Of a stretch of DNA of 64,000 nucleotides, positions 16,930 to 23,580 are shown in pieces; position 1 is the first letter of the stretch, and every line of letters starts with the position of its first letter. The position numbers and the translations under genes are program-made. Source of the stretch: Streptomyces antibioticus (lineage in GTDB: Bacteria > Actinomycetota > Actinomycetes > Streptomycetales > Streptomycetaceae); assembly GCF_001514065.1 (NCBI RefSeq), contig NZ_KQ948431.1, forward strand, positions 325,434 through 389,433, in the 5' to 3' direction. Below the pieces are notes generated by a model. That model did no database searches. It was given only the letters and a program-made list of their open reading frames with translations, and was not told the DNA's origin.

Positions 16930-17096
16930 CCTCCGCCGCGCTCACCGCAGCGCCGCGGCAGCCGCCAGCGGGGCCTTTGCCGTGCTCAGCGAGCCGCCGT
17001 AGTCGCCGACGAGGCCTCCGCCGGGCTCACCGAGCCGCCGCGGCAGCCGTCGGCGGGGCCTGCGCGGTTTCACCGAGCCGCCACGGTAGCCGTCAG
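16924..17096. repeat. Four 41-44-bp tandem repeats copying the 3' end of the methyltransferase gene
   Basis: Units begin near 16924, 16968, 17009 and 17053. Each runs GCGGGGCC..., then a CTCACCGAGCC-like core, then GCCGCGGCAGCCGTC or a variant. The last unit contains the final codons and stop (17070) of the methyltransferase gene. The others lie beyond the stop as degenerate copies of that end, each keeping a TGA-equivalent. The length variation and mismatches point to an old slippage-type expansion. Confidence 0.75.
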
Positions 17097-17804
17097 CAGC
17101 ACCATCCCCGAGTCCCCGTAGTCCGGCAGCGTCGGATCGGAATCGAGGTGATGCACCGTCAATTCGCTGGTCAGCGGAGCGAATACGGCCCTCACGGTCT
17201 CCGGGTCCACGGGGCAGCCCGGCCACCGCGACGCCGGCCCGATCCGGTACGTCGGCATGTTCTCCATGAACGCCGCCACCACACACCCGCCCGGCGCGAC
17301 GCAGCGGACGAACGCCCGGCAGAAGTCCGCGAACTCCTCGCGGTCCTCGGTGGCCCCCTCCGCGACGAAGTGCATCGACGCCAGCCCGTACCCGCCCCGT
17401 TCGAGGGTCCGGACGTCCTGGTGGACCACGTGCACGCGCGCCAGCGACCTGGCCAGCGTGGACGGCAGGTCGGGGTTCAGGCGCCGGCACAACGCGTGGA
17501 AGGGCAGCCAGCTCGCCTCCGGCCCGCACAGGATCTGCCGCTCCAGATAGGCGACATTGCCGGCCCCCGCCTCGACGGCCTCGATGCGGCGGCTGGCGGC
17601 CGACGCCAGGATCAGCGGGTAGAGATTGGGCCCCGCGCCGAACTCCACCGACCGCGCTATCCCGCCCGGCGCGAACCGGCGGTAGAAGGCCGAGTGGTGG
17701 GCGATGACGGCGGCGTCCGAGGGGTGCAGCTCGCGGTAGTTCTCCGCGAGGTAGTCCGCGACCGGCCAGCGGTCCCAGTCCACGTCGTCGTTGTGCGTCG
17801 TCAC
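17070..17804 (-). CDS. SAM-dependent methyltransferase, NNMT/PNMT/TEMT-like
   Basis: The 244-residue protein starts at GTG 17804, seven bases after the stop of the large fusion gene, with GGGTGAGG as ribosome binding site, so the two are very probably translationally coupled. SAM-binding motif I is VEFGAGPNLYPLIL, and an acidic residue follows in RIEAVEAG. The closing motif GGCVVAAFMENMPTYRIG resembles the small-molecule N-methyltransferase class (NNMT/PNMT/TEMT, possibly the family named after SCO2525). The substrate may be the product of the PLP domain encoded just upstream, but this is inference. Its 3' end is tandemly repeated downstream. Confidence 0.78.
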   Translation of the reverse strand: MTTHNDDVDWDRWPVADYLAENYRELHPSDAAVIAHHSAFYRRFAPGGIARSVEFGAGPNLYPLILASAASRRIEAVEAGAGNVAYLERQILCGPEASWLPFHALCRRLNPDLPSTLARSLARVHVVHQDVRTLERGGYGLASMHFVAEGATEDREEFADFCRAFVRCVAPGGCVVAAFMENMPTYRIGPASRWPGCPVDPETVRAVFAPLTSELTVHHLDSDPTLPDYGDSGMVLLTATVAAR

Positions 17805-17811
17805 CGCCGCC

Positions 17812-20800
17812 TCACCCCTTCGACCGCAGCCGGAACCTGGTGGCCAGCCGTGACAGCGTCGCCGTGAGCCGCTCGATGTCCTCGTCGGAGTTGAGCGCCG
17901 TGATCTGGACGCGGAAACCGACCCGGTCACGGGGTACGAGGGGATAGGCGGCGAGGGCCACGTAGATGCCCTCCTCCCACAGGAACGCGGCGACCGCGTC
18001 GAGATCGGACGGGTCCGCCAGCGGGATCTCCACGATGGGCAGCCGGTCCCTGTTGAGGGTCAGCACCTCCAGGTCGTCGAGATGGTCGAGCACCCGGGCC
18101 GTCTTGCGATACAGCTCGGCCCGTATGCCGTCACCGCGACGCTCGTTGACGTCCAGGCCGGCCAGCACGGTCGCCAGGGACGCGGTCGGCGACGGACCCG
18201 AGTACAGATAAGGGGCCGCGGCCGTCTTCAGCCGCTCCTTGAGCTCGGTCGGCAGCGCGAGGAAGGCCAGCAGCGACGAGTACGCCTTGGAGAAACCGGC
18301 GGTGAGGACGATTCCGTCGTACGTCTCCCCGGTGTGCCGCACCACGCCGTTGCCGCGCGAACCGTACGGGCAGCTCTCGTCGGGGCCGCGCTCGCCGATC
18401 ACGCCGAAGCCGTGCGCGTCGTCCACGTAGAGCGTCGCGCCCCGGCCGCGGCACACGGCCGCCAGCGCGGGCAGGTCCGGCACATTGCCACTCATGCTGT
18501 CGACGCCGTCGAGGCACACCAGGCGGGGTCCGCTGCCGGGGAGCGCGGCGAGCAACGCGTCCAGTTCCTCCGGGCGTTCGGCGTGGAAGCGGCGCAGCGT
18601 GGCGCCCTGGCTGCGGGCGGCGACGCACCCGTCGTACACGGTCCGGTGCGCGGTCGCCTCGACGAGGACATGGCCGCCCTCGGCGAGCACCGGGATGACG
18701 GAGGAGTGGATGAGTGTCAGCGTCGGCAGCAGCAACGTGTCGGGGGCGCCCAGGAGTTCGGCCAGCCGCTCCTCGATCTCGGGGTACGGCCGGGGGCTGC
18801 CGATGAGCCGCGACCAGCTCGGGTGGGTGCCCCAGCGGCGCACCATGGGCTCGATGCCGGCGGCGATCTCCGGGTCCCAGTCGAAGCCGAGGTAGTTGCA
18901 GGACGCGAAGTCGATCAGCCAGTGGCCGCGGCTGCGGATGTGCCGGCCCCGCACCTCGTCGAGGACCGCGTCGCTCATCAGGCTGTTCCGCCGCAGATGC
19001 TCCAGGTCGGCCCAGCGCACCGCGCGCTCACCCCGCACCGGCGTCTTCGCGGCTGCCGGTGCCCCGTTGCTGACGGTCGCGCGCCGGACGCCGTCCCGGT
19101 CCCGCAGCACCCGCTCGCTCTGCTGCACCGTCATCGGCCGGGCGAACAGGAAGCCCTGCCCGAACCGGCACCCCATCCCCGCCAGCAGGTCCCGCTGCCC
19201 GGGCTCCTCGATCCCCTCGGCGATCACCTGCATCCCGAGCGTGTCGGCGATGCGCACGATGCCCTCGACGAGCGCGACCTGCTGCGAGTCATGCGTGATG
19301 TCGTCGATGAACGTCTTGTCGATCTTCAGTACGTCGATCGGGAAGTCCCGGAGATAGCGCAGCGAGGAGAAGCCGGTGCCGAAGTCGTCCACGGCGATGT
19401 GCACGCCCAGCTCCTTGAGGGCCTGGAGCACCCCCTGGATCTGGATGTCGTGGCGCAGCAACAGCGTCTCGGTGAGCTCCAGTTGGAGTGATCCCGGCGC
19501 CAGCCCCGGCGTCCTGAGCGCCTCGCCGACCTGGTCGACGAAACCGGCGTCGCGGAACTGCCGGGCGGAGACGTTGACGCTGACGTACGGCGGCTCGCCC
19601 GGCCCCGGCAGCCGTTGCAGCCCCGCGATATCCTGGACCGCGTTCTCCAGCACCCAGGAGCCCAGCACCGCGATGTGCCCGGTCTCCTCGGCCAGCGAGA
19701 TGAACTGCTCCGGCGACACCGGCCGGCGGCGCGGGGAGGGCCAGCGCACCAGCGCCTCGAAGCCCACCACCTCACCCGCGGTGATGTCCACGACGGGCTG
19801 GTAGCGCAACGCGAACTCCTTGCCGGCGACCGCCTGGGCGAGCCGGCTCTGCAGGTCGTGCCGCTCGACCATGCGGCTGTGCAGCAACGGCTGGAAGCGC
19901 CGCCACTGCCGCTTGCCGGCCGCCTTCGCCGCGTACAGCGCCAGGTCGGCGTGGCCCAGCAGCTCCTCCGCGTCGGTGCTGTCCCGGGCCGTGGCCACCC
20001 CGACGCTCGCCGAGACGGTCACCGACTCCTCGCCCAGCACGAAGGGCCGGGTCAGCGTCTGGATCACCTGCGCCGCCAGCAGCTCCGCGTCCAGCGGCTC
20101 GCGCGCGTCCTCCATCAGCACCGCGAACTCGTCACCGCCCAGCCGGGCCGCCGTGTCGGTGCGCCGCAGCGCCTTGGCCAGCCGGCTGCCGACCGCCACC
20201 AGCAGATGGTCGCCCGCGGAGTGCCCGAGGGTGTCGTTGACCTGCTTGAAGTCGTCGAGGTCGATGAAGAGCAGACAGGTCAGGGAGGCTTCGCGGCGGC
20301 CGCGCAGCAGGGCCCGCTCGATGCGCTCCAGCAGCAGGGTCCGGTTGGGCAGCCCGGTCAGGGAGTCGTGGAAGGCCCGCTGGGTCAGCTCGTGCTCCAG
20401 ACGCCGCTGCTCGGTCACGTCGCGCAGGGTGACCACGAGCCCGGCGACGGTGCGCTCGTCGCGGAAGTCGCTGCACCGCACCTCCACCTCGACGCGGCCG
20501 TCGCGGTGCCTTACCCACCAGTGGTCGTGGGTGGCCCGCGGTCCGCTCTCCCGTACGGCGTCGAGCTGCCGGGCCGCCCGGTTGCGGTCACGCGGGTCGA
20601 CCAGGTCGGGCAGGGGCGCCCCGACGAGGTTCGTGTGGCCGAAGACGGAGGCCGCGGACGGGCTGGCATAGCGGACGGTGTTGTCGTCCTCGACGATCAG
20701 GATGACGTCGGAGGTGTTCCGCACGAGGGTGCGGAAGTAGGCCTCGTTCTCGCGACGGATGATCTCCTGGCGCAGCGCGACGCGCTGGACGGCCAGGCCC

Positions 20801-22188
20801 GCGTGGGAGGCGAGGATCTCCAGCGAGGCGCGGGTCTCGTGCAGCGGCCCGGGCGGCCCGGCGACCAGCAGCACCCCCGGGACCTGCGCCGCGGGGCGGT
20901 CCGGAGGCGTCATCGGGCAGGCCAGGACGGCGGGCAGGCCCCCGAGGGTGTGGGCGAGGGCGGGGTCGATCTCGTCGGCGGGCACCATGCGGCTGCCATG
21001 GGGGGTGAACTCGGCGGCCCGCTCGGCGGGCAGCAGCAGGGTGCGGTGGTCTGCGGCGGGGGCGAGCAGGGTGTCGACGGCCGTCTCGCACGACCGGGCG
21101 ACCTCCTCCAGCCGGACCGCCGAGACCAGCGAGGCCCCCGCCCGGCGCAGTGCCAGCTCCCGGGCCACCGCCTTGCGGTGGACCACCACGATGCCCGCGA
21201 GACGCAGGATGACCAGCAGGAACAGCACGCTCGAGAAGGCGGCGATCACGGCCGCGTGGTGGGGCGAGCCGCTCAGCCCCTCGTAGAGCAGGATGCCGGG
21301 GGCGATGAGGGTCGCGGCGGCCAGCAGGAACAGCCGGCGCGGCCGGGGGAGCAGGGACACCTTCTGCGGTACGGCCGCGGTCAGCGCCACCATCGAGGGG
21401 TGCAGCGCGGCCAGTCCCCACGCCGTGTAGAAGACGACCCACCCGGTGTCCAGCAGGGTGCCGGTCTCCCACATCGAGTTGAGCTGGAGCATGCCGTACG
21501 CGATGTCGAAGCCCAGCAGCGTCGCGGTCCCGACGAACAGCAGCTGCACCGACCGGTTGGGGCCGTCCACCGGGCTCGGCGTGAGCAGCCTGGCCAGCAG
21601 GGCGAGGACCAGCACGTCACCGAGCGGGTAGGCGACGCTGATCGCCCGCTGCTGCCAGGTCAGTCCCTCCACCTCGGTGAGCGGCTGCACCAGGTACACC
21701 CACACCGGCAGCGCGAGACCGCTGGTGAGGATCAGCGCGTCGAGCAGACTCGGCAGGTCGTGGCCCGACCACCGGTAGCGGATCAGACCGGACAGCCCGA
21801 TCGCGAAGAGCGGGTAGGTGGCCAGGTAGCAGGCGTCCGCGGGGGAGGGGAACGGGTTGGAGGCGTGGAAGTAGTCCTCCATCACGTTGTAGTACGTGTC
21901 GCCCGCGATGAACGTCAGCAGCCCGGCGGCGAGCACCCACCAGGGCCAGCGGTGCGCGGGGCGGTGCAGCCGGCTACCGGTGAGTACGGCGGCGACGCCG
22001 GAGAGTCCGATGACGGCCCAGAGGGGGGTGCGCGCACTGGGGACCGTCAGATAGACGATGGTGGCGACGGCGACCGCCGAGATGTAGACCGCCATCAGCC
22101 GGTGTGCCGGCAGCAAGGGCAAGCGCCTCCCCCTGTGGCGGAGACCGGGCCGTCCTACTGGTCCGGGATCCTTTCCGATCGTAGGCAC
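17812..22188 (-). CDS. Membrane PAS-GGDEF-EAL protein fused to a PLP alpha-oxoamine synthase
   Basis: This single 1458-codon frame encodes, in order: eight to ten membrane helices (about 15-330), a GAF-like region, a PAS domain (about 480-590), GGDEF, EAL and a complete PLP enzyme. The GGDEF motif is intact at 684-688 and preceded by an RRTD inhibitory site. The EAL domain (EAL at 811-813) keeps its metal and catalytic residues (VNVSARQF, ELTETLL, VDDFGTGFSS, LKIDKTF, AEGIE, GQGF). From about 1071 to the end lies an alpha-oxoamine synthase-like fold: HRTVYDG, DDAHGFG (1256-1262) and the Schiff-base Lys1301 in GFSKAYS. Known relatives of this fold make 8-amino-7-oxononanoate, 2-amino-3-ketobutyrate or CqsA/LqsA signalling ketones. 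A methyltransferase gene follows seven bases later. An internal ATG at 18978 could give a free PLP enzyme, but it has only a weak ribosome binding site. Confidence 0.9.
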   Translation of the reverse strand: MPTIGKDPGPVGRPGLRHRGRRLPLLPAHRLMAVYISAVAVATIVYLTVPSARTPLWAVIGLSGVAAVLTGSRLHRPAHRWPWWVLAAGLLTFIAGDTYYNVMEDYFHASNPFPSPADACYLATYPLFAIGLSGLIRYRWSGHDLPSLLDALILTSGLALPVWVYLVQPLTEVEGLTWQQRAISVAYPLGDVLVLALLARLLTPSPVDGPNRSVQLLFVGTATLLGFDIAYGMLQLNSMWETGTLLDTGWVVFYTAWGLAALHPSMVALTAAVPQKVSLLPRPRRLFLLAAATLIAPGILLYEGLSGSPHHAAVIAAFSSVLFLLVILRLAGIVVVHRKAVARELALRRAGASLVSAVRLEEVARSCETAVDTLLAPAADHRTLLLPAERAAEFTPHGSRMVPADEIDPALAHTLGGLPAVLACPMTPPDRPAAQVPGVLLVAGPPGPLHETRASLEILASHAGLAVQRVALRQEIIRRENEAYFRTLVRNTSDVILIVEDDNTVRYASPSAASVFGHTNLVGAPLPDLVDPRDRNRAARQLDAVRESGPRATHDHWWVRHRDGRVEVEVRCSDFRDERTVAGLVVTLRDVTEQRRLEHELTQRAFHDSLTGLPNRTLLLERIERALLRGRREASLTCLLFIDLDDFKQVNDTLGHSAGDHLLVAVGSRLAKALRRTDTAARLGGDEFAVLMEDAREPLDAELLAAQVIQTLTRPFVLGEESVTVSASVGVATARDSTDAEELLGHADLALYAAKAAGKRQWRRFQPLLHSRMVERHDLQSRLAQAVAGKEFALRYQPVVDITAGEVVGFEALVRWPSPRRRPVSPEQFISLAEETGHIAVLGSWVLENAVQDIAGLQRLPGPGEPPYVSVNVSARQFRDAGFVDQVGEALRTPGLAPGSLQLELTETLLLRHDIQIQGVLQALKELGVHIAVDDFGTGFSSLRYLRDFPIDVLKIDKTFIDDITHDSQQVALVEGIVRIADTLGMQVIAEGIEEPGQRDLLAGMGCRFGQGFLFARPMTVQQSERVLRDRDGVRRATVSNGAPAAAKTPVRGERAVRWADLEHLRRNSLMSDAVLDEVRGRHIRSRGHWLIDFASCNYLGFDWDPEIAAGIEPMVRRWGTHPSWSRLIGSPRPYPEIEERLAELLGAPDTLLLPTLTLIHSSVIPVLAEGGHVLVEATAHRTVYDGCVAARSQGATLRRFHAERPEELDALLAALPGSGPRLVCLDGVDSMSGNVPDLPALAAVCRGRGATLYVDDAHGFGVIGERGPDESCPYGSRGNGVVRHTGETYDGIVLTAGFSKAYSSLLAFLALPTELKERLKTAAAPYLYSGPSPTASLATVLAGLDVNERRGDGIRAELYRKTARVLDHLDDLEVLTLNRDRLPIVEIPLADPSDLDAVAAFLWEEGIYVALAAYPLVPRDRVGFRVQITALNSDEDIERLTATLSRLATRFRLRSKG

Positions 22189-22224
22189 CTCACCCGGACG
22201 GCTGCATCCCGAGCCCCACGCGCC

Positions 22225-22704
22225 TCACTGCCGGTGGAAGCGGCGATGCAGCGCGTGCACCTCCTCCGCGAGCTCCGGCACGGGCCCCTCCACCACCACG
22301 TCCGGCGCCACCTCGCGCACCGGCAGGGCGCGCACCGGAGCCGCGGGGACGCCCAATTGGCCCAGCCACTGCACCAGTTGCGCGGAGGAGGCCACGTACA
22401 CGATGCGGCCGAGACCGACCCAGGCGTGCGCGGCCGCGCACATCGGGCAGTGTTCGCCGGAGGTGTACACGGTCGCCGCCGCCCGCTCCTCGGGCGTCAG
22501 GTGCGCCGCGGACCAGCGCGCAAGCTCGAACTCGGGATGCCGGGTGCGGTCCCCGGAGGCCACCCGGTTGTGGTCCTCGGCGAGCACCGCTCCGTCCCCG
22601 CCCACCAGGACCGAGCCGAACGGCTCGTCCCCGGCCTCCAGCGCCTCGGTGGCCAGCTCCACACAGCGGCGCAGATACGGCAGCTCCTCGTCCTTCACGA
22701 CCAT
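22225..22704 (-). CDS. Nucleoside/guanine deaminase-family protein with variant zinc motifs
   Basis: The 159-residue protein (ATG 22704, GAGGAGG nine bases upstream) belongs to the cytidine/deoxycytidylate deaminase superfamily. The usual HAE motif reads HPEFELARW, keeping the zinc histidine and catalytic glutamate. The usual PCxxC motif reads GEHCPMCAAAH, keeping both cysteines. Such enzymes deaminate guanine, cytosine or related bases. The altered residues next to the ligands suggest a shifted specificity. It is divergent from the acetyltransferase gene that starts at 22804. Confidence 0.82.
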   Translation of the reverse strand: MVVKDEELPYLRRCVELATEALEAGDEPFGSVLVGGDGAVLAEDHNRVASGDRTRHPEFELARWSAAHLTPEERAAATVYTSGEHCPMCAAAHAWVGLGRIVYVASSAQLVQWLGQLGVPAAPVRALPVREVAPDVVVEGPVPELAEEVHALHRRFHRQ

Positions 22705-22803
22705 GGCGTACGGCCTCCTCGACCTGGCGGCTGCGGAATGTTCCCGGACATCATGGCCCGTAAAGGTGTTGCCCCGGGTGCCTCCTGGTGCTGGAGTGAA
22801 CCC

Positions 22804-23580
22804 ATGGATCATGACGCGGTGCTCGCCCTGTACGACCGGGACATGCGCGAGGGCGCGCAGCCGGACAGCCCGGAGTCCCGGATCGAACGGACGGGGAAGG
22901 TGGTCCGGCAGGTCTCCACCGCCCAGGGCTGGAACGGCGTGGTGTGGTCCGACCTGGACGCCGGCAGCGCGGACGCCGCGATCGCCGAGCAGATCGCGTA
23001 CTACACCGGGCTCGGTCACGAGTTCGAGTGGAAGCTCTACGGCCACGACCTGCCCGTGGACCTCGGACAGCGGCTCCGAGCGGCGGGGTTCACCCCGCAG
23101 CCCGAGGAGACCCTGATGATCGGCGAGGTCAACGACCTCACCCTGGACGCCGAGCCGCCCGAGGGCATCCGCGTCCTGCCCGTCACCGACCAGGCCGGTG
23201 TCGACCTCGTGGCCGACGTGCACGAGGCGGCCTTCGGCACCGACAGCACCCGGCTGCGCCGCCAGCTGCTCGCCCAGCTCACCGACGACTCCGACACCGT
23301 GGTCGCCGTCGTCGCCCTGGACGGGGACACCCCGGTCAGCGCGGCCCGGATGGAGATGGTCCCCGGCACCCGGTTCGCCGGCCTCTGGGGCGGCGGCACC
23401 GTCGAGGCCTGGCGCGGCCGCGGCATCTACCGCGCCTTGGTGGCCCTGCGGGCCCGCGAGGCCGTGGAACGCGGCTACCGCTACCTCCAGGTCGACGCGA
23501 TGAGCACCAGCCGCCCCATCCTGGAACGCCTCGGCTTCGAACCGCTGACCACGACGACGCCCTATCTGTACACACTGTGA
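22804..23580 (+). CDS. GNAT-family N-acetyltransferase
   Basis: The 258-residue protein has a GNAT fold in its second half. The acetyl-CoA pyrophosphate loop appears as VEAWRGRGIYRALV, followed by the helix ALRAREAVERGYRYLQVDAM and the late strand RPILERLGFEPL. The N-terminal half is a GNAT-like extension found in many Streptomyces proteins annotated only as acetyltransferases. The substrate is unknown. The epimerase gene starts 55 bases downstream on the same strand. Confidence 0.82.
   Translation: MDHDAVLALYDRDMREGAQPDSPESRIERTGKVVRQVSTAQGWNGVVWSDLDAGSADAAIAEQIAYYTGLGHEFEWKLYGHDLPVDLGQRLRAAGFTPQPEETLMIGEVNDLTLDAEPPEGIRVLPVTDQAGVDLVADVHEAAFGTDSTRLRRQLLAQLTDDSDTVVAVVALDGDTPVSAARMEMVPGTRFAGLWGGGTVEAWRGRGIYRALVALRAREAVERGYRYLQVDAMSTSRPILERLGFEPLTTTTPYLYTL

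Follow-up and report, generated by a model that had tools for sequence, protein, structure and literature searches.

CdgF of Streptomyces carries a C-terminal alpha-oxoamine synthase and may be the fused form of a synthase-sensor module of Actinomycetota

We analysed a 64,000-nucleotide stretch of the Streptomyces antibioticus genome (contig NZ_KQ948431.1, positions 325,434 to 389,433, hereafter the window), in which one gene (17812..22188, minus strand) joins a membrane domain, a PAS domain, intact GGDEF and EAL domains for cyclic di-GMP (c-di-GMP), and an intact alpha-oxoamine synthase (AOS), a pyridoxal phosphate (PLP) enzyme. We regard it as practically certain that this fusion is conserved and that CdgF of Streptomyces venezuelae is the protein's orthologue. 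On the reading that we tentatively prefer, to which we give slightly less than an even chance, it is the Streptomyces form of a module spread over the phylum, in which the AOS would make a signal that the membrane sensor reads, with c-di-GMP as output.

A conserved fusion in CdgF

The frame of 1458 residues runs from a GTG codon to its stop without interruption, with a high third-position GC content throughout; its start codon is uncertain, since relatives align by tblastn from a first residue between 2 and 46, in most cases between 8 and 30. All its features lie on the minus strand. The multi-helix membrane sensor domain covers residues 31-336 (21181..22098), as judged from alignment A3, gene linkage and a simple hydropathy analysis, which gave nine membrane segments; ten are listed for CdgF (PMC6205966). 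The PAS domain, the best hit among several PAS models of Pfam, occupies residues 484-596 (20401..20739). It is followed by a GGDEF domain (residues 605-760, 19909..20376; Pfam E 2e-46) with an RxxD I-site (R675-D678) and the GGDEF motif from residue 684, and by an EAL domain (residues 782-1018, 19135..19845; E 2e-70) with its catalytic motifs present and EAL at residue 811. A variable linker (residues 1019-1057, 19018..19134), where split relatives have a stop codon, a ribosome-binding site and a start codon, leads into the AOS domain (residues 1058-1458, 17815..19017), which matches Aminotran_1_2 at residues 1130-1443 (E 2e-20) and carries DDAHG from residue 1256 (D1256-D1257-A-H1259) and FSK with Lys1301. 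Thus the fusion announced by an earlier sequence-only reading of the window proved genuine and uninterrupted, with both halves intact. Between the membrane and PAS domains, residues ~345-470 (20779..21156) gave no Pfam hit in the window protein, and weak GAF hits in the homologues L271 and L274 suggest a possible degenerate GAF-like region (loci, genomes and families are denoted by L, G and f numbers).

The window protein was identified through genome G015. Both genomes encode eight GGDEF proteins, and the positions of the G015 genes correlate at r = 0.9998 with the eight vnz tags on the chromosome that PMC6205966 lists in its Table 1. The single HD_5 match of G015 was found at 5.246 Mb, against a prediction of 5.296 from the fit to the tags; the published table gives two HD-GYP genes, one of them degenerate, and our search of G015 found one. 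From this gene order we infer that G015 is S. venezuelae and that its L201/L049 gene is cdgF. Seven pairs of GGDEF proteins are reciprocal best hits between the two genomes, and the window protein pairs reciprocally with the gene at the cdgF place (63.7% identity over 878 residues). Taking a reciprocal best hit and more than 45% identity, the cut-off of PMC6205966, as the mark of an orthologue, the window protein qualifies as an orthologue of this putative CdgF, which it also resembles in its multiple transmembrane segments, PAS domain and intact GGDEF and EAL domains.

CdgF (vnz02140/sven0451) is listed, via SMART, as 10TM-PAS-PAC-GGDEF-EAL with no AOS (PMC6205966), and at the cdgF position of G015 the frame continues into an AOS (L049). 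The membrane fraction was the only one in which C-terminally FLAG-tagged CdgF was seen (PMC6205966). Provided that G015 is S. venezuelae, the tag follows the AOS, and its location in the membrane speaks for a fused product. The function of CdgF is still to be defined according to PMC13232838. Neither aminotransferase nor pyridoxal turned up in PMC7911125 or PMC7026642, nor did oxononanoate in PMC12096830. In the open-licence PMC literature, the S. venezuelae tags are named in PMC6205966 only, and we found no paper there describing a fusion of GGDEF with an AOS (BioF, PLP enzyme or class I aminotransferase). The suggestion that the window holds an undescribed system stands for the fusion; the protein itself turned out to be the orthologue of a named one.

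Fused relatives rule out that the fusion is peculiar to the window genome. We examined 125 loci and set aside 14 duplicates and two short ones. The 109 that are left are all distinct and divide into 84 fused, 13 split, 11 with an AOS and no adjacent CdgF-type gene, and one cut at a contig end. The two halves are adjacent in 97 loci, 84 fused against 13 split, so that homologues are not always encoded as two genes. These states were called by a script from tblastn ends and frames, and unannotated loci were read with a home-made open reading frame caller whose starts and lengths are rough. The less selected sample consists of those 25 of 150 Streptomyces genomes, the window's own among them, in which the AOS and linker found a match. 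The c-di-GMP enzyme and the AOS are collinear in all of the other 24 loci, whose flanks were fetched; including the window, 16 of the 25 are fused, one carries a frameshift, and in eight a stop, ribosome-binding site and start separate the two halves. A collection of named genomes contained 315 relatives, the best 80 of which comprise 71 fused, eight split and one cut at a contig end; fused forms like the window's are favoured here because the nearest relatives were chosen. At the family level, the AOS occurs in 11/150 genomes and 3/17 genera, and Actinacidiphila rubida is among the fused loci beside Streptomyces. A plasmid search with the AOS at E 1e-60 gave no match. One candidate fusion, an open frame of 1543 in G317 (f28), was rejected and counted as split, because a gap of 63 bp and a change of frame separate its AOS from the rest.

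An open frame through the linker is weak evidence by itself, because stop codons are rare in GC-rich DNA; indeed, reading the linker in either of the remaining forward frames meets no stop in 71/84 and 66/84 fused loci. The length of the linker, however, is divisible by three in 89/97 loci, where one third would be expected. In 13 disjoint pairs of close fused linkers of equal length, substitutions at codon positions 1/2/3 number 51/52/103 (147/130/318 over all 39 pairs), and the window differs from its nearest relative, L101, by 0/2/8. Judged by this pattern, the linker changes in the manner of a coding sequence. As for the c-di-GMP half upstream, GGDEF and the I-site are present in 97/97 loci, and the EAL motifs DD.G.G, E.TE and K.D in 96/97, 97/97 and 93/97, respectively.

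The synthase domain and its methyltransferase neighbour

The PLP domain was correctly assigned to the AOS class in the sequence-only reading, as was Lys1301. The NCBIfam bioF model matches residues 1078-1445, and the SPT and KBL models match overlapping stretches; none of these matches reaches the curated cut-off of its model (172 against 426 bits for bioF). The closest solved relatives are KBL/AONS (8s1y, 7poa) and SPT (2x8u), with E 1e-35 to 1e-33, and the profile match to this group reaches E 4e-43. KBL/AONS scores 127 bits and SPT 120. Direct membership of the CqsA family was ruled out, with 38 bits for CqsA against 127 for the best KBL/AONS entry. The likeness to CqsA and LqsA that had been proposed is worth taking seriously; by sequence, the PLP domain is closer to KBL/AONS and SPT than to CqsA. 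The window protein has the whole AOS-family signature of a fold-type I PLP domain: DDAHG and what we take to be the Schiff-base lysine, the PLP-stacking histidine and the carboxylate-binding arginine. K242, D198, H200, H122 and R367 are invariant in an alignment of 24 AOS sequences (A1). Among the 109 loci, DD[ATS]HG is found in 109, FSK in 104, AH.T in 105 and VG.R.Q.T in 105; L191 carries LSK in place of FSK. The AlphaFold model of the domain (24 rows) was poor, with a pLDDT of 63, and was not used. In two distant relatives from f58, an AMP-binding domain and a carrier protein precede the AOS in one fused protein (L275:6309-9806 and L276:7730-11182), which points to an acyl-carrier substrate there; these fusions adjoin a sensor hybrid kinase (L275) or a sensor-GGDEF-EAL protein (L276).

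The sequence-only reading, right about the fusion, had left out a conserved gene downstream. It encodes an S-adenosylmethionine (SAM) methyltransferase of 244 residues (17070..17804, minus strand), with a likely GTG start 7 nt past the stop codon of the CdgF orthologue. A methyltransferase of ~245 residues was matched in 93/97 loci, at a median of 33.5 nt from the AOS match; two of the 93 are a 43-residue remnant (L171) and a gene cut at a contig end (L122). All 50 Foldseek matches listed for its AF2 model (pLDDT 90.6) belong to the NNMT, PNMT and INMT group, and the profile match to NNMT has E 1e-5. Its Pfam score of 20 lies below the cut-off of 25, and its match to the SCO2525 family of NCBIfam (E 2e-36), at 125.7 bits, falls short of the 240-bit equivalog cut-off for membership. 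By predicted fold and sequence similarity, it is a member of the NNMT/PNMT/TEMT group. Because the model matches NNMT, PNMT and INMT, N-methylation of a small amine is its likely chemistry, and an alpha-aminoketone is such an amine. The gene also tends to be lost along with the PLP lysine, which is replaced by Q, R, N and Q in L113, L150, L163 and L171, respectively: setting L122 aside, the methyltransferase is absent or a remnant in 3/4 of these loci against 2/92 others. L150 and L163 are sisters, which leaves two joint losses among three lysine losses. In L180 (Streptomyces noursei B-3066), the methyltransferase frame extends to ~828 residues, a possible further fusion.

In the window, the upstream gene (22225-23223, minus strand) encodes a cytidine-deaminase-like zinc domain, whose cluster recurs in 3/25 loci compared. 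A 1321-codon open frame on the plus strand (19615-23580), mostly antisense to the fused gene, is probably an effect of the high GC content; by eye, its 3' end resembles a separate GNAT acetyltransferase gene.

Linkage of synthase and sensor across Actinomycetota

The AOS and the CdgF-type membrane domain, here called the sensor, keep company far beyond Streptomyces. Among the 150 Streptomyces genomes, 28 have the sensor, and these include all 25 with the AOS. The AOS occurs in 36/394 genomes of the class and in 26/396 of the phylum, 24 of the latter outside the class. Of 20 AOS loci fetched from outside the class, every one encodes within the fetched stretch a protein bearing the CdgF-type membrane domain. 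In a test of 20 such genomes, overlapping the fetched loci in 19, the sensor gave 1-5 matches per genome and lay within 6 kb of the AOS in 20/20 and within 1.5 kb in 17, where chance predicts an AOS-proximal sensor in 0.15; the sensor query came from G892, itself one of the genomes tested. Both tests combined place the sensor near the AOS in 21/21 genomes covered of the 24 (G658, G754 and G766 were left out). Gene order varies among the 20 loci: the AOS precedes the sensor in 14, the reverse of Streptomyces, and follows it in two, while three pairs are divergent and one is convergent.

What the sensor is attached to varies as well. Outside the class, it carries GGDEF-EAL in 16/20 loci (Pfam was run on six of these) and a histidine kinase in 6/20, three of which have GGDEF-EAL too; one locus (L273) is cut at a contig end. 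The kinases are of the PAS-HisKA (L260, L262, L264), ATPase-receiver (L259) and HisKA_3 (L265) types, besides a kinase-receiver-receiver-Hpt hybrid (L275). L260, L262 and L264 each encode two proteins with the same sensor, one a histidine kinase and the other GGDEF-EAL, together with the AOS and a major facilitator superfamily (MFS) pump. Such a pump is found in 10/20 loci outside the class (Pfam on two) and, within the class, beside the AOS in five distinct loci. Such pairing of one synthase with one sensor under varying outputs is reminiscent of signal synthases and their receptors, as in CqsA/CqsS and LqsA/LqsS, and the presence of AOS and sensor side by side across Actinomycetota suggests, without proving it, that the AOS makes a signal read by the sensor. 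A synthase linked to a multi-helix sensor, the arrangement of the CqsA/LqsA type, is found in 25/25 Streptomyces genomes with the AOS and 20/20 loci outside the class, and is not clear in family f18.

In f18, a family within the class, the AOS stands alone in 11/11 fetched loci, without a CdgF-type neighbour. We considered whether the GGDEF-EAL genes near some of these loci represent the same linkage and rejected the idea, as their similarity to the sensor is too weak: the unlinked paralogue CdgC, at 76-83 bits, scores above them. By eye, a leucyl/phenylalanyl-tRNA-protein transferase-like gene lies near the AOS in 8/11 of these loci (L182-L192).

Sensor copies without an AOS offer a further hint. 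A protein of ~1090 residues with an MbtH-A-PCP-reductase architecture is encoded 73-79 bp downstream of AOS-free CdgF-like sensor-GGDEF-EAL genes in 6/10 fetched loci, all from Streptomyces (L241, L243, L246-L249; Pfam on two). Enzymes of this type release amino aldehydes, so that both partner enzymes would make alpha-amino carbonyls, and this shared chemistry may hint at the ligand class of the sensor. Glycan genes form another part of the surroundings: of 93 loci spanning 12 kb or more, 35 have GH15, 28 GalE-like genes, 16 Ugd, 16 UXS-like genes and 12 beta-helix proteins. GalE, Ugd, UXS-like, beta-helix and GH15 genes, some of them named by eye, surround many split loci and AOS-free copies (L037-L048, L240-L247) and give these a setting of envelope glycan genes.

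A possible signalling module and its alternatives

A mechanism can be sketched from these observations. The AOS would, with good probability, condense an amino acid with an acyl thioester into an alpha-aminoketone, as the chemistry of its family and its intact active site indicate. In Streptomyces, the next gene would rather probably N-methylate the amine of this aminoketone, a step to which fold, operon position and, counted in its favour, the joint loss with the PLP lysine all point. The product would then leave the cell, in some lineages presumably through the adjacent MFS pump. That this product, or something derived from it, binds to the membrane sensor, which then sets the balance between GGDEF and EAL, is a good possibility rather than a probability, given the linkage and the precedent of CqsS and LqsS. 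Local c-di-GMP would feed into the developmental network, and one could speculate that c-di-GMP bound at the I-site acts back on the synthase. Taken at its fullest, CdgF would unite in a single polypeptide an autoinducer synthase and the receptor for its product: the membrane domain of the same class of protein would read the methylated alpha-aminoketone, and GGDEF/EAL would translate it into c-di-GMP that acts on Streptomyces development. CdgF would then represent, in fused form, an Actinomycetota-wide synthase-sensor system driving c-di-GMP enzymes or histidine kinases, its synthase sometimes exchanged for the MbtH-A-PCP-reductase. In all these particulars together we consider this scenario unlikely, although far from negligible.

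Several observations weigh against a signalling module. By sequence, the AOS is nearer to KBL/AONS and SPT than to CqsA, and in 4/84 fused loci the PLP lysine has been replaced, yet the domain is kept. The methyltransferase has no match in the 20 loci outside the class and none in 4/97 inside it. No effect on development was seen when cdgF was deleted (PMC6205966). In 3/28 Streptomyces genomes the sensor is present with no AOS match, extra copies of it exist elsewhere, and CdgC carries a domain related to it. In f18, a GGDEF-EAL gene lies within ~7 kb of the AOS in 6/11 loci, with a membrane domain scoring only 30-55 bits. In addition, the existence of split forms and of possible internal starts means that covalent fusion is not essential.

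The main alternative keeps the direction of control proposed in the sequence-only reading, with c-di-GMP or membrane signals switching the AOS, and makes CdgF a biosynthetic enzyme tethered to the membrane whose product is a metabolite that the sensor does not read. The integrity of GGDEF and the I-site in every one of the 97 loci, and of EAL K.D in all but four, speaks for such gating, as do the operon with the methyltransferase and sometimes a pump, and the other biosynthetic enzyme, MbtH-A-PCP-reductase, that follows the AOS-free sensor-GGDEF-EAL in 6/10 fetched loci. Gating leaves unexplained, however, why the sensor and not the c-di-GMP enzyme is the constant partner, and in 3/20 loci outside the class the fetched stretch shows only a sensor-kinase and no sensor-GGDEF-EAL. 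A synthase with its receptor fits a constant pair with swapped outputs at least as well, and we hold gating to be possible but on the doubtful side. Still less probable is that the product serves as a building block or decoration of an envelope polysaccharide or lipid under c-di-GMP control and carries no signal. Sugar-nucleotide and glycan genes do lie near many loci; however, no neighbour in the window belongs to the GH15, GalE, Ugd, UXS or beta-helix cluster, most of the 80 fused loci lack any given one of these (GH15 is present in 24, GalE-like in 17), and none is prominent among the recurrent clusters outside the class, where no search with these queries was made.

Two further alternatives concern the fused product itself. 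The gene might yield two proteins if translation of the AOS begins anew within the linker; the fused frame would then be a minor read-through. This is suggested by the stop, ribosome-binding site and ATG at the linker of split relatives, by a ribosome-site-like motif ahead of an in-frame start in 21/84 fused linkers (a loose pattern), and by the lability of the fusion, since the AOS tree, a quick tree with SH-aLRT support only, needs at least eight changes between the fused and split states, at least 4-5 of them forced by strongly supported branches. AGGAG or GGAG with ATG, as in the split relatives, occurs in the fused linkers of L044, L124, L140, L144, L147 and L164, as if loss of a stop codon had given rise to the fusion. 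No such site exists, however, in 63/84 fused linkers, the window's included, and the coding signature of the linker and the confinement of C-terminally tagged S. venezuelae CdgF to the membrane fraction also speak for a fused product, so that we find an internal start quite improbable. An artefact of assembly or sequencing, to which the frameshift of relative L057 in this region might lend some colour, is refuted by 84 distinct fused loci and has hardly any chance of being correct. L057 itself (G009) belongs to a single-contig assembly, and the frameshifts in its cdgF-like gene mark either a pseudogene or sequencing errors.

The AOS domain missed in the named protein CdgF is a direct chemical handle, whose product may lead to the ligand of the sensor. 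Actinomycetota are known mainly for gamma-butyrolactone signals. A synthase-sensor module, if true, would add an AOS-based signalling route across the phylum and a case in which a synthase and its putative receptor are covalently joined.

Compared with CdgF as published, whose architecture stops at EAL, the reciprocal best hit in G015 runs on into the AOS. KBL/AONS, a dual enzyme, and SPT are the nearest solved relatives of the PLP domain, which differs from them in being the C-terminal domain of a membrane signalling protein and in missing the NCBIfam cut-offs. The downstream methyltransferase shares the fold of the amine N-methyltransferases NNMT, PNMT and INMT and is set apart from the SCO2525 family by its score below the cut-off. 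Parallels at the level of whole systems are the autoinducer synthase and sensor systems CqsA/CqsS of Vibrio and LqsA/LqsS of Legionella. As in these, a synthase of the AOS family lies beside a multi-helix membrane sensor, and in six of the 20 loci outside the class the sensor is likewise borne by (hybrid) histidine kinases. In contrast, the AOS is only distantly similar to CqsA, the main output is GGDEF-EAL, and in Streptomyces the synthase and the sensor are fused.

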